NCBI GenBank assembly: GCA_000299115.1
Contig: CP003801.1
Location: forward strand, 806,001-870,000
Reading direction: 5' to 3'
From: an alpha proteobacterium HIMB59
Lineage (GTDB): Bacteria > Pseudomonadota > Alphaproteobacteria > HIMB59
Length of the DNA stretch: 64,000 nt
Position numbers and translations under genes: made by a program. Positions 52,297 to 56,855 of the stretch are shown here, in pieces. Numbering within the stretch: the stretch's first letter is position 1; every line of letters begins with the position of its first letter. Under the pieces are notes generated by a model that was not told the DNA's origin, made no database searches, and was given only the letters and a program-made list of their open reading frames with translations.

Positions 52297-53817
52297 ATGA
52301 AATTAAATAATTTTTCAAAAATATCTTCGAACATATTCAGCTCTCGTGTTACTGGATTTTTTCGGGATGTATTGTTTGCAAATTTTCTAGGAGCTAACAT
52401 CTTATCGGATGCTTTTTTATTTGCTTTTAGATTGCCAAACCTTTTTAGAAGGATTTTAGCCGAAGGGGCAATGAATAGTGTATTTATTCCTCTCTATATA
52501 AGACAAAGTAAGGAAAGTCAGTCACTTGCTAGCGATTTTACTTCTGCAGTTTTTTTAATTTTTTTATCAATTACCTCAATAATGACAATTTTTGTCTTTC
52601 TATTTAGTGAGCAAATTACCAGCTTCCTTGCCCCAGGTTTTATAGACAATGAAGATCAATTTAACTTCGCCATTCAATTAATTCCTATAATTTTCCCTTT
52701 TTTAATATTTGTAACACTCTCTGCAGTAATCAGCTCAGTTTTAAATATAAAAGGAAAGTTTTTTTTACCATCGTTTTTATCAGTCATTTTAAATGTGCTT
52801 ATGATAGGCACTCTTTTGATATTTAAATCTGAATCGCATTTTCCTCTAGCATGGTCAATTTTAATAGCTGGGATAATTCAATTATTTCTTTTAATGATAA
52901 ATGCTAATTTTTTTAAGTCATTATTTCAATTTGGCTTAAAAAAACTATCACTTTTAGGTTCTATTTTAAGAACGTTTTTTAAGAGGTTTCTTTTTTCTGT
53001 TTTAGGCTCGGGTATTGTTCAATTAAATATTTTTGTTTCGATGTTATTTGCATCTTTAGTAGGAGAGGGTGCGATCAGTCATATTTACTACGCTGATAGA
53101 ATTATAGATTTGCCTTTTGCTTTAATAGCAGTTGCGATGACATTTACTCTTTTACCTTACTTAAGCAAAAATATTCTAGATGAAGAAAAAAATGCAAATG
53201 CCTTTAATCAAACTATTATTTTTTGTTTTATTTTTGCTCTACCAAGCAGTTTTGCTTTATTTTTTATTTCTGAAGATATAGTAAGAGTTTTGTTTGGTCG
53301 GGGTGAATTTTTAAATAAAGATATTTTGATTACTAGTAATTTGCTTTTGATCTATTCTTTCTCTCTTCCTGGCTACATGATCTCCAGAATTTGCAATCAA
53401 GTTTTCTACTCATATGAAAGAGTAGATTTGCCAATTAAGGCATCTATTCCCACTTTCATTTTAAATTTGGTTTTGTGTTTTTCTCTTTATCGTCCACTAG
53501 GCGTCTATGGTTTGGCTATAGCAGGAGCTATAAGTGTTTGGATAAATGTATTTATTCAAATTTTTTATTTGAAGATTTATTTCTCTAATTTCTATAAGAA
53601 AATTAAATTTTTAAATATTATAAAAATAGCAAAAATATTAACCTCATCTTCAATAATGATATTTGTGATTTTATTTTTGCAAAATATCTTAAATCTCAAC
53701 ATATACATTGATTTGATAATTTTAATTGTAATTGGAGTTTTTGTTTTTTTTGCAGTCTTAAATTTATTAAAGTTGGAAGAATATCGTTTGATCTATAAGT
53801 CAGCACTATTTAATTAG
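52297..53817 (+). CDS. murJ: Lipid II flippase MurJ
   Basis: MOP-superfamily transporter of 506 aa with about fourteen helices that flips lipid II across the inner membrane for wall synthesis. The opening SRVTGFFRDVLFANFLGA and the RLPNLFRRILAEGAMNSVFIP loop with essential Arg residues are diagnostic, as is YYADRIIDLPFALIAVAM. Complements rodA and the M23 hydrolase in the window. Followed by tRNA-Val 53 bp downstream. Confidence 0.95.
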   Translation: MKLNNFSKISSNIFSSRVTGFFRDVLFANFLGANILSDAFLFAFRLPNLFRRILAEGAMNSVFIPLYIRQSKESQSLASDFTSAVFLIFLSITSIMTIFVFLFSEQITSFLAPGFIDNEDQFNFAIQLIPIIFPFLIFVTLSAVISSVLNIKGKFFLPSFLSVILNVLMIGTLLIFKSESHFPLAWSILIAGIIQLFLLMINANFFKSLFQFGLKKLSLLGSILRTFFKRFLFSVLGSGIVQLNIFVSMLFASLVGEGAISHIYYADRIIDLPFALIAVAMTFTLLPYLSKNILDEEKNANAFNQTIIFCFIFALPSSFALFFISEDIVRVLFGRGEFLNKDILITSNLLLIYSFSLPGYMISRICNQVFYSYERVDLPIKASIPTFILNLVLCFSLYRPLGVYGLAIAGAISVWINVFIQIFYLKIYFSNFYKKIKFLNIIKIAKILTSSSIMIFVILFLQNILNLNIYIDLIILIVIGVFVFFAVLNLLKLEEYRLIYKSALFN

Positions 53818-53843
53818 ATTTACTATTTACTATCCTGTTTTTT

Positions 53844-53852
53844 TATATAAAA
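53844..53852 (+). promoter_or_regulatory. Possible tRNA-Val promoter (-10)
   Basis: TATATAAAA lies about 20 bases before the mature tRNA 5' end. No clear -35 is visible. A separate promoter is expected for a tRNA gene after a weakly expressed membrane-protein gene. Confidence 0.3.
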
Positions 53853-53870
53853 GTAAGAAACCCAATCTTT

Positions 53871-53947
53871 GGGCGTGTAGCTCAGCTGGTTAGAGTACTT
53901 GCTCGACACGCAAGGGGTCACAGGTTCGAATCCTGTCACGCCCACCA
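53871..53947 (+). tRNA. tRNA-Val(GAC), with C33
   Basis: A complete 77-nt cloverleaf: acceptor GGGCGTG/CACGCCC, D stem GCTC/GAGT with one G-U pair, anticodon stem CTTGC/GCAAG, 5-base variable loop, T arm ACAGG-TTCGAAT-CCTGT, discriminator A and encoded CCA. The seven-base anticodon loop is TCGACAC, giving anticodon GAC (valine, reads GUC/GUU). Position 33, almost always U, is C here. All stems pair, so it looks like a functional gene rather than a decayed one. Confidence 0.93.
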
Positions 53948-53982: not shown

Positions 53983-54462
53983 ATGAGAATATTTATATTT
54001 GCTGTTACTTTTTTACTCTTTCATTTAAATTTATCTGCCAATAGCTTTTCTATTTTTGGGGGCTCTTACGACTATGACGATGACAATACTTCTACGCTTT
54101 ATGGTCTAAATTATCATCTTTCTGATAATAAATTTAGCGTTTTTAATGTTATCGATCTAAATCCTGTAATTGGAGGATTTGTGACAGCTAAATCTGCAAC
54201 TATGTTTTATAGTGGTTTTGAGACAAATATTGGCCAAGATTCCATATATCTTAATTTATCCTCTTCAGCTGGTATTTATTCTAATGGTGACGGAAAAGAT
54301 CTAGGCAATGCATTGCAGTTCAAATCTGAAGTAAATCTTTTCTATAGATTAGGTAAATCATCTAGCGTTGGTTTGGGATCACATCATATTTCTAATGCGG
54401 GTCTTAGTTCGGTTAACCCTGGTACAAATAATTTTTACTTGATTTTTAATAGAGATTTTTAA
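53983..54462 (+). CDS. PagL-like outer-membrane protein (lipid A deacylase family)
   Basis: 159 aa with a signal peptide (cleavage near SAN, residue 20) and alternating hydrophobic strands of a small beta-barrel, ending in Phe. The catalytic block H-x-S-N of PagL is visible at His135, Ser137 and Asn138 (HHISNAGL), followed by NPG. The third catalytic residue (Glu, 14 after the His in PagL) is Asn149 here, so 3-O-deacylase activity is uncertain. No close operon partner upstream; 54 bp precede the proton-channel gene. Confidence 0.75.
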   Translation: MRIFIFAVTFLLFHLNLSANSFSIFGGSYDYDDDNTSTLYGLNYHLSDNKFSVFNVIDLNPVIGGFVTAKSATMFYSGFETNIGQDSIYLNLSSSAGIYSNGDGKDLGNALQFKSEVNLFYRLGKSSSVGLGSHHISNAGLSSVNPGTNNFYLIFNRDF

Positions 54463-54516
54463 TTTAAATCTAAATTAAGTAATTGTTTAACTCTCTCTAA
54501 TCGTTTATTTTTAGTT

Positions 54517-55386
54517 ATGGTAAAAAATTTTTTAGCCTACTTATTTCTTTCTGCTCTTCTAGCGATAGTGCTAGTAATTGGATACGATCCAATAATTGGT
54601 TACTACAAAGCTAATCCCTATATTAATGGGCTAATTCTTTTAACTCTTATTATTGGCTTCTCAATTTATACAGTAAAAATTATTTCATTGAGTTCAGAAT
54701 ATAGGTTCATGAATTCTGTTGCATTTGGAAAATTAAAGATCAATGACACAAGTCTCAATAATTATCCTATTACTAAAAATATTGCCAAAAACTTAGGAAT
54801 AATTTCCTCAAGTAAAACTATTCATAAGTCTTTAGAAGAAATTTTAGATGAACTTTACTCAAGCATTGAGAATGGAAAAGATATTTCAAAATATTTAATT
54901 AATTTAGCAGTTTTTTTAGGATTAATAGGAACCTTTTATGGACTATTACTTACTATAGGAAGTGTCTCTAATGTTATTGATGGCCTATCTATTGAGCAAC
55001 AAGACTTTGGAGTATTTTTTGACTCACTAAGAAATGGACTAAAATCTCCACTATCTGGAATGACTATAGCCTTTAGCTCTTCTTTATTTGGCTTAGTTAC
55101 ATCATTAATACTGGGGCTATATGAGATTATCACCAAAGGAATTAAACAAACTTATTTTGAGTTCTGCGAAAGTCAGATCAGACTTTATTATAAAGCTAGT
55201 TCTAAATCAAAAAGCACTGGCAACAATAATGATAATTCAGAGTTGATATCCAAACTATCTGAGCTCGTTGAAGGTATTAATAAGATAAATAATAATTTTT
55301 CAAATTCCAATGAAGAGATAAAAAAAGAAATTTCTTCTGAAATAAAAGATCTTAGTAAAAGTATTAAAGATTTAGTAAAGAAGTGA
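54517..55386 (+). CDS. MotA/TolQ/ExbB-type proton channel protein
   Basis: 289 aa inner-membrane protein with helices at about 5-22, 37-57, 127-149 and 181-205. The region LAVFLGLIGTFYGLLLTIGSV and the long fourth helix SGMTIAFSSSLFGLVTSLILG are the channel-forming MotA/TolQ signature. A cytoplasmic tail (about 230-289) is Ser/Asn-rich and then coiled-coil. It overlaps the OmpA-tailed partner by 4 bp (GTGA), so both are made together. No flagellar or tol genes are nearby. The pair resembles stator units, and superficially ZorA/ZorB, but no Zorya effector is present. Confidence 0.85.
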   Translation: MVKNFLAYLFLSALLAIVLVIGYDPIIGYYKANPYINGLILLTLIIGFSIYTVKIISLSSEYRFMNSVAFGKLKINDTSLNNYPITKNIAKNLGIISSSKTIHKSLEEILDELYSSIENGKDISKYLINLAVFLGLIGTFYGLLLTIGSVSNVIDGLSIEQQDFGVFFDSLRNGLKSPLSGMTIAFSSSLFGLVTSLILGLYEIITKGIKQTYFEFCESQIRLYYKASSKSKSTGNNNDNSELISKLSELVEGINKINNNFSNSNEEIKKEISSEIKDLSKSIKDLVKK

Positions 55387-56855
55387 GTTACTATTCTAAG
55401 TCCCAAAGTTCTGAGGATAATAGCTTAATTTGGCCTGGTTTTGTAGATGTCCTAGCTTCTACATTAATGGTAATTATATTTGTTGTATTGCTTTTTACTG
55501 TAGCTCAAGTTTATTTAGGCGATTTAGTAGTCGGAAAAAATGAACAAATTCAAAACTTAGAAAAAACTATAGAAATTCAAGATGAAACTATAGTTGAACA
55601 AGATCTTTCATTATCTGATAAAGAACTAGCGCTAATTGAAAGACAAGAAGTAATAAGTCAATTAGATACCGAACTCGAAATTCTTGATGAGGAGATCAGA
55701 CTGAAACAGTCTGAAATTTCTGAGAAAGAAAATCTATTAACAGCCAAAGATGAAGAAATATTTGAAAAAGAGAGTCTCATAACAGCTAAAGATCAAGAAA
55801 TATCATTACAAGATGAACTCTTAAAACAAAAAGATGAAACAATAATAACTTTAGACGACTTAATCGATAAACAGGCCTTAGATATTACTGAGTTAAACGA
55901 AATTATTGCACGTATTACTGAAGAATTATCTTTATCATTGGAGGAAAAAGAAGAACTAAGAGGAAGGTTATCCTCTCTAAATGAAGAGCAAGAACTTTTA
56001 AAAAGCCAATTGCAAGAATTAGGTGGAGAAAATCAAGCTTTAGTAGGACAATTATCAGACTCTCAAGGAAGGATTCAGTCTCTTCTTGAGTCATTGAGTT
56101 CTTCAGCAGATGAAAATGAAATTTTAGAAACTCAAATATCTTCAGTAGAAAGCCAAAATCAGTCGCTTAGAGATCAGATTACATCTTTGGAGCAAGACTC
56201 CGTAATCCAAACTACAAGCTTAAATGATGCTTTAGCGCAAATTTCAAGATTATCTGAGGATATTAAGATCCTGAGCAATGAAATCCAATTACTCAACAAT
56301 TTGCTTGACTCAAAAGAAGCTGAAATAGCTTCCAATAAAATAGAACTAGGAGAATTAGGAGACAGGTTAAATAGAGTTTTAACAAGTGAATTATATAAAT
56401 TACAAAAATATAAATCTGAGTTTTTTGGTCAACTATCTGAAACCCTAGGGCAAAGAGAAGACATACAAATCAAAGGTGATAGATTTATTTTTCAGTCAGA
56501 AATTTTATTTGAGTCAGGAAGTGCAGATATTCAAGCAGGCGGAAGGGTAGCATTGTCTTTAATAGCTAAAACTTTAATTGATTTATCTAATCAAATTCCT
56601 ACTGATTTGAATTGGATTTTACAAGTAGACGGACATACAGATAAAATTCCAATAGCTACAGCCAGGTTTCCCTCTAACTGGGAGCTTTCACACGCAAGAG
56701 CTTTAGAAGTTGTAAAGTTTTTTATTCAACAGGGAATACCTGCTGACAAATTATCAGCTAATGGTTATGGCGAACACCAACCAATTAGCTTGGGTAGTTC
56801 GCCTGAAGATTTAAAATTAAATAGAAGAATTGAATTAAAAATTACTCAAAGGTAA
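55383..56855 (+). CDS. OmpA/MotB-family rod protein with long coiled coil
   Basis: 490 aa from GTG 55383. One membrane helix (about residues 22-45), then some 300 residues of coiled coil rich in Glu, Leu, Ser and Gln, including a near-repeat EKENLLTAKDEEI (114-126) and EKESLITAKDQEI (128-140). A C-terminal OmpA domain (about 360-490) has DGHTDKIP, SHARALEV and NRRIEL, the peptidoglycan-binding pattern. It is the likely stator partner of the preceding channel protein, with the coiled coil spanning the periplasm to reach the wall. Energy use and target are unknown. Confidence 0.86.
   Translation: MSYYSKSQSSEDNSLIWPGFVDVLASTLMVIIFVVLLFTVAQVYLGDLVVGKNEQIQNLEKTIEIQDETIVEQDLSLSDKELALIERQEVISQLDTELEILDEEIRLKQSEISEKENLLTAKDEEIFEKESLITAKDQEISLQDELLKQKDETIITLDDLIDKQALDITELNEIIARITEELSLSLEEKEELRGRLSSLNEEQELLKSQLQELGGENQALVGQLSDSQGRIQSLLESLSSSADENEILETQISSVESQNQSLRDQITSLEQDSVIQTTSLNDALAQISRLSEDIKILSNEIQLLNNLLDSKEAEIASNKIELGELGDRLNRVLTSELYKLQKYKSEFFGQLSETLGQREDIQIKGDRFIFQSEILFESGSADIQAGGRVALSLIAKTLIDLSNQIPTDLNWILQVDGHTDKIPIATARFPSNWELSHARALEVVKFFIQQGIPADKLSANGYGEHQPISLGSSPEDLKLNRRIELKITQR

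Follow-up and report, generated by a model that had tools for sequence, protein, structure and literature searches.

A uridine at position 33, the hinge of the anticodon U-turn, is a near-invariant base of tRNA. The only tRNA gene that ARAGORN and Rfam recognise in the 64,000-nucleotide stretch of DNA analysed here (the window), a tRNA-Val(GAC) gene of the alphaproteobacterium HIMB59, encodes cytidine at this position. This raises the question of whether such a gene is an error, a decaying copy, a tRNA repaired by editing or a working elongator tRNA of another type. HIMB59 has been described as a coastal tropical isolate (PMC3815206), and its genome consists of one contig, 1,410,127 bases long.

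An intact and conserved tRNA-Val(GAC) gene with C33

The gene folds into a cloverleaf with paired stems and the anticodon GAC (ARAGORN, Rfam and sequence), scores 68.6 bits against an Rfam gathering score of 29, and encodes its own CCA at 53945-53947 (Table 1). A35, C36 and A73, which we take to be the valine identity bases, are all present, and charging with valine is predicted. The loop, UCGACAC, lacks the usual U33 and fits the pattern of the wider C33 class, in which C33 stands with A38 or C38 and rarely with U38. The anticodon GAC also separates this tRNA from eukaryotic-type initiators, whose CAU anticodon and initiator features it does not have. A shifted anticodon register was ruled out, as the five-pair stem fixes the seven-base loop. 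The initial annotation had placed the gene and its C33 at the positions given in Table 1, which the sequence and ARAGORN confirm; its view that the stems pair, CCA is encoded and the gene looks functional is upheld by ARAGORN, Rfam, the sequence and the conservation of the gene.

Table 1. Features of the tRNA-Val(GAC) gene, in window coordinates.
Feature	Coordinates	Strand	Basis
tRNA-Val(GAC) gene, CCA encoded	53871..53947	+	ARAGORN; Rfam RF00005, 68.6 bits; sequence
Anticodon arm, positions 27-43, CTTGC TCGACAC GCAAG	53898..53914	+	Sequence; all 5 stem pairs Watson-Crick
C33, where U33 is usual	53904..53904	+	Sequence; C in 30/30 same-genus copies read
Anticodon GAC, positions 34-36	53905..53907	+	ARAGORN
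C38, the base covarying with position 33 across bacteria	53909..53909	+	Sequence; contingency tables

The gene lies between ORFs at 52297-53817 and 53983-56855. The upstream neighbour is presumably MurJ-like, and the ORFs downstream (by 53983-56855) presumably encode a PagL-like outer-membrane protein and MotA/ExbB-like and OmpA/MotB-like proteins. Bases 53840-53870, immediately upstream, are conserved in the genus, and an inverted repeat, CCCAAxCxxxGGG, extends from this region into the start of the gene, where it is predicted as a minus-strand terminator-like site (53874-53860). A promoter scan found none.

Each of the 35 RF00005 matches in the genome was read with ARAGORN. U33 is present in 34, so that its near-universality, as initially claimed, holds in this genome; the sole C33 belongs to tRNA-Val(GAC), the only GAC tRNA encoded. 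A second valine tRNA gene, Val(UAC), which the initial annotation had raised as a possible cover for the same codons, is present with U33. In the window, 59 mechanical ORFs reach 150 codons or more; their valine codons number 432 GUU, 259 GUA, 99 GUC and 80 GUG, with GUU and GUC together making up 61%.

The comparison with sister genomes that had been proposed as a check gives a uniform answer within the genus. A close copy of the gene is present in 30 of 36 same-genus relatives, and all 30 readable copies carry C33; the remaining six genomes are incomplete assemblies (50-81% complete) with just weak matches to other tRNAs. The loop is UCGACAC in 28 of the 30 copies and UCGACAU in two (G015 and G024). 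Where the assembly extends 200 bases or more to either side of the gene, as in 28 relatives, mean identity to the HIMB59 copy, used as the reference, is 99.0% for the tRNA and 54-63% for its flanks. The sister family within the order is represented by 23 genomes, and C33 is found in 17 of the 18 copies read there, the exception (G038) having U33 in the loop UUGACAU; one genome (G046) has no match, and the matches in G045, G048, G053 and G054 lie outside the 18. Since all 30 relatives carry C33 and conservation falls off steeply in the flanks of the gene, C33 is neither a sequencing error nor, with the stems also intact, the mark of a decaying pseudogene.

tRNA-Val(GAC) with C33 is spread over many groups of bacteria

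A pattern for C33 tRNA-Val(GAC), scanned over one genome per species, matched at least 117 places, and ARAGORN reads all 117 listed places as tRNA-Val(GAC) with C33. Position 38 is A in 67 of them, C in 40, U in 10 and G in none. Grouped by record title, among the matches listed, 77 of the 80 titled places fall into approximately 18 bacterial groups and three are unassigned. These are minimum figures, as the patterns insist on a D arm with AGAG, a variable region of five bases and the motif GTTCRA, and miss many tRNAs. The distribution rules out an oddity of a single lineage.

Evenly drawn phylum samples show how unevenly the C33 form is distributed; those of Planctomycetota, Actinomycetota, Bacteroidota and Bacillota each contain one genome that was picked as a seed for its C33. 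In Planctomycetota, C33 is present in 67 of 115 recognised genomes (139 searched), with U33 in 49 and both forms in one, and in Actinomycetota in 33 of 64 (139 searched). The corresponding figures are 4 of 52 for Bacteroidota (118 searched) and 1 of 61 for Bacillota (139 searched), the one being the seed. Among 240 Alphaproteobacteria, 161 were recognised, with C33 in 10 and U33 in 152, one genome (G114) having both, while 79 matched neither pattern; three of the ten are HIMB59, a congener and a member of its order. Two genomes, G585 and G114, contain both C33 and U33 tRNA-Val(GAC) genes, possibly through contamination. Many groups of bacteria thus have C33 tRNA-Val(GAC) genes, and the initial statement that C33 is mainly a feature of eukaryotic initiators is not supported: bacterial tRNA-Val(GAC) frequently carries it, as both the at least 117 places and the phylum samples show.

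C33 is concentrated in one isoacceptor

An any-anticodon C33 pattern, applied to 50 C33 genomes taken from the 80 listed loci, matched 51 places: 50 tRNA-Val(GAC) genes and one place, in G328, that does not resemble a tRNA on inspection of its sequence. Once either C or T was allowed at position 33, the pattern matched 805 places in these genomes, and the other tRNAs within the 80 listed loci have U33 in 44 of 44 cases. Across the 240 Alphaproteobacteria the any-anticodon C33 pattern matched 23 genomes, 10 with tRNA-Val(GAC) and 13 with other matches, of which ARAGORN accepts three; part of these 13 are chance matches, because a reversed control pattern gave 6 places in the same genomes. In a sample of 120 Pseudomonadota it matched 12 places in 11 genomes, namely the HIMB59 tRNA-Val(GAC) and 11 others, and ARAGORN recognised one tRNA, Thr(CGT), among the seven of these that it was given. 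C33 in bacterial chromosomes is therefore strongly, though not absolutely, concentrated in tRNA-Val(GAC).

The other bacterial C33 tRNAs accepted by ARAGORN are Ala(CGC), Arg(CCT), Phe(AAA) and Thr(CGT), one of each, at loci L213, L219 and L222 in Alphaproteobacteria and L230 in Pseudomonadota.

Position 33 covaries with position 38

A table of 470 tRNA-Val(GAC) rows, of which 150 are U33 rows from Alphaproteobacteria (representing 146 of the 152 U33 genomes), was used to compare the two forms of the loop; the rows are not independent, and the counts ignore kinship. With U33 (n=352), position 38 is U in 281 rows, C in 55, G in 14 and A in 2, and with C33 (n=118) it is A in 71, C in 42, U in 5 and G in none. 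A38 or C38 therefore accompanies C33 in 113 of 118 rows, and A38 is found in 2 of 352 rows with U33. Reduction to 89 distinct arms gives U33 with U38 in 36, C38 in 11, G38 in 10 and A38 in 2, and C33 with A38 in 14, C38 in 11 and U38 in 5; stratified by group, the comparison of A38 with the rest in these arms gives a chi-square of 22.6 (p = 2e-6).

A prediction set beforehand for Actinomycetota held, with A38 or C38 in 32 of 33 C33 rows and A38 in none of 37 U33 rows. C38 does not discriminate there, being present in 34 of the 37 U33 rows, and the firm part of this result is consequently A38. On viral contigs the same prediction for C33 failed. At least 120 places there match the C33 Val(GAC) pattern, 112 of them confirmed as C33 tRNA-Val(GAC), and A38 or C38 is present in 88 of the 112 (79%, against 90% predicted), with one C33-G38 combination. 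U33 with A38 is again rare, occurring in 15 viral stretches, of which 13 are tRNA-Val(GAC); 10 of the 13 have no U32 and so cannot form a U32-A38 pair. U33 with G38 occurs in 48 viral stretches, 41 of them tRNA-Val(GAC). Bases 33 and 38 change together, and the clearest sign of this is A38, which accompanies C33 and is all but absent beside U33.

The pair that closes the loop is C31-G39 in 111 of the 118 C33 rows (80/85, and 31/33 in Actinomycetota), and U33 rows have G31-C39, C31-G39 and others at this position.

Predicted folding of the anticodon loop

Cytidine lacks the N3 hydrogen that U33 uses in the U-turn. In that structure, the residue 36 phosphate accepts a bond from N3-H of U33 (PMC8080527). 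The anticodon loop of unmodified E. coli tRNA-Phe has been reported to collapse through U32-A38 and U33-A37 pairs (PMC5485724), and t6A37 to block the U33-A37 pair (PMC9654439). If its A37 is unmodified, a loop of the type U32-U33-GACA-A38 could likewise collapse through U32-A38 and U33-A37, leaving a triloop of GAC, whereas C33 would be unable to pair with A37 and the A38 loop would stay open. ViennaRNA predictions agree: the probability of a 33-37 pair is 0.67 for UUGACAA and 0.00 for UCGACAA, and natural arms with C33 and A38 form no such pair but reach 0.67 if base 33 is made U. A38 may thus keep company with C33 because U33 with A38 is predicted to form the 33-37 pair and C33 is not. That C33 serves to keep A38 loops open is a possibility suggested by this modelling, on which we would place less than even weight.

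Loop collapse does not explain the gene in the window, because its C38 loop is predicted to be open with U33 as well (probability of the 33-37 pair 0.017). Two natural U33 loops are also predicted to close, UUGACAG (0.56, 14 rows) and GUGACAU (0.79, 11 rows), and the Gly(GCC) loop of HIMB59, UUGCCAA, has a predicted closure equal to that of UUGACAA yet keeps U33. As a full account, loop collapse therefore fails for these loops and for C38 loops, and it is retained as a partial explanation. Direct pairing of 33 with 38 around a GACA tetraloop (U33-A38 or C33-G38) was rejected, having a probability of at most 0.03 in all loop types. It has been argued in general that a Watson-Crick 32-38 pair is tolerated with a GC-rich anticodon (PMC6720975), and its GC-rich anticodon may let Gly(GCC) tolerate such a pair. 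In yeast, U33C abolishes modification of the wobble uridine by Elongator (PMC11096365), which suggests, by analogy, why tRNAs with a modified U34 keep U33.

A working reading for tRNA-Val(GAC) can be assembled from these elements. In C38 loops such as that of the window, C33 would be a tolerated alternative rather than a loop-opener. A purine at position 35, here A35, perhaps preserves the 33-35 contact of the U-turn. We take G34 and A37 of tRNA-Val(GAC) to be unmodified, so that neither a wobble nor an A37 modification needs U33; tolerance of C33 could then arise from the contact kept by A35 together with the lack of any modification that requires U33. Decoding of both GUC and GUU would fall to such a tRNA, Val(UAC) serving as a partial backup, and C33 may, as initially suggested, alter decoding or modification. 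The reading that we favour, at slightly under even confidence, is that HIMB59 encodes a functional, conserved elongator tRNA-Val(GAC) of a C33 type, in which C33 is unedited, opens A38 loops and is tolerated in C38 loops. A broader proposal is more speculative: bacterial tRNA-Val(GAC) might come in two loop designs that can replace each other, one having U33 and a weak 32-38 contact, the other C33 and either A38 or C38, between which lineages switch by a coupled change at 33 and 38, the C33 design decoding without the canonical hydrogen bond of U33 and the choice of base replacing A37 modification in keeping the loop open.

Alternative explanations and the phage tRNAs

One alternative is relaxed constraint, in which tRNA-Val(GAC) is partly redundant with Val(UAC) and position 33 drifts, with C33 bringing no gain. 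Val(UAC) is indeed present, the scattered distribution of C33 fits repeated change, and the combination C33-U38 also occurs (5/118 rows; 10/117 listed places). Drift, however, predicts no covariation of 33 with 38, and neither the retention of C33 in all 30 genus copies nor the identity of 99% in the gene against 54-63% in the flanks would be expected. A and G are moreover absent at position 33 (the main pattern accepts C or T; this was tested in the 35 HIMB59 tRNAs and the viral loci), and GUU and GUC provide 61% of valine codons in the 59 mechanical ORFs of the window. We regard relaxed constraint as unlikely.

The viral contigs bear on a second alternative, that C33 is an escape from an anticodon nuclease, or from another loop-reading enzyme that needs U33, and makes the tRNA resistant. 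Mutated loops have been suggested to let phage tRNAs escape the anticodon nucleases of their hosts, in passages that name no position 33 (PMC10264068). In 255 viral loci, a biased set, the distinct non-GAC tRNAs have U33 in 2395 cases, C33 in 155, G33 in 6 and A33 in 1, so that C33 makes up 155 of 2557; viral loci not chosen for C33 give 15/357 and 23/771, together 38/1128. This C33 in many phage isotypes fits the nuclease-escape proposal without proving it. Bacterial chromosomes, on the other hand, have C33 almost solely in one isoacceptor, where a particular base change at position 38 accompanies it, and for these genes nuclease escape seems improbable.

The C33 tRNAs on viral contigs include Asn, Glu, Asp, Ile, Leu, Val(CAC) and others, and loci with C33 across many isotypes include L275, L304, L298, L319, L278, L282, L283 and L296, among others. 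At a single viral locus C33 reaches 9 of 29 non-GAC tRNAs (L275), and on L399 a tRNA that ARAGORN reads as tRNA-Pyl (anticodon CTA) with C33 lies beside a Ser(TGA) with C33. Phage tRNAs with a purine at position 35 have C33 more often than those with a pyrimidine (97/1208 against 58/1342, p = 1e-4; 74/1111 against 58/1342 without Val, p = 0.012). In loci not chosen for C33 the difference is not significant (20/476 against 15/493, p = 0.39), and purine 35 is at best weakly indicated as a permissive factor for C33.

Under C-to-U editing, the encoded C33 would be deaminated to U33 in the mature tRNA and a normal loop restored. The near-universality of U33 speaks for this, as does the report that yeast tRNAs mutated at position 33 translate poorly (PMC3664417). 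Editing of A38 genes would, however, yield U33-A38, a combination shunned by U33 genes (2/352 rows) yet the one that C33 genes prefer (71/118), and the comparison of sequences therefore makes it likely that C33 is not edited to U. This argument is indirect, but none stronger against editing emerged. An editing enzyme would also be needed in many groups, and the account could be rescued only if that enzyme required A38 or C38; we give editing little credence.

Least probable of all is that one ancestral C33 tRNA-Val(GAC) spread horizontally, with the 33-38 pattern as a founder effect, a spread for which the C33 genes common on viral contigs could be a vehicle, since arm sequences differ among groups and resemble those of local U33 genes (in Bacteroidota, TTACC-TCGACAA-GGTAA of G559 beside TTACC-TTGACAG-GGTAG of G555, and likewise G892 beside G970 in Actinomycetota) and the HIMB59 gene is conserved across its genus and in the sister family.

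Relation to known C33 tRNAs and implications

The eukaryotic initiator has the anticodon CAU, and hence A35 as in GAC. Animal initiator tRNA-Met carries C33 (PMC9023262; PMC8080527) and, like the tRNA described here, is a working tRNA with a natural, conserved C33; it differs in being an initiator rather than an elongator, in its anticodon and in its domain of life. Sulfolobales tRNA-Cys(GCA) is likewise a natural elongator tRNA with C33 confined to one isoacceptor of a clade, although it is archaeal, specific for cysteine and limited to that one clade, and the paper that describes it could not isolate that tRNA (PMC7668247). Phage tRNAs with altered anticodon loops (PMC10264068) share changes at loop positions that are rigid in their hosts, C33 being the change seen here, but extend over many isotypes where bacterial chromosomes show one isoacceptor. 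The ordinary bacterial tRNA-Val(GAC), for example with the loop UUGACAU, has the same anticodon and fold as the C33 form, and differs in combining U33 with U38, C38 or G38 where the C33 class has A38 or C38.

In the literature searched we found no account of C33 in bacterial tRNA-Val(GAC), which may already be in print; the surveys of Saks and Conery (2007) and of Marck and Grosjean (2002) would be the likeliest to include it. The C33 tRNAs known from earlier work are animal initiator tRNA-Met and Sulfolobales tRNA-Cys.

The frequency of C33 across whole phyla makes this isoacceptor a natural experiment on the need for U33: evolution has supplied both a U33 and a C33 version of one tRNA, whose decoding, loop structure and modification can be set side by side. 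The coupling of positions 33 and 38 provides a concrete, testable rule, and real tRNA genes will be lost wherever annotation filters or engineering rules insist on U33.
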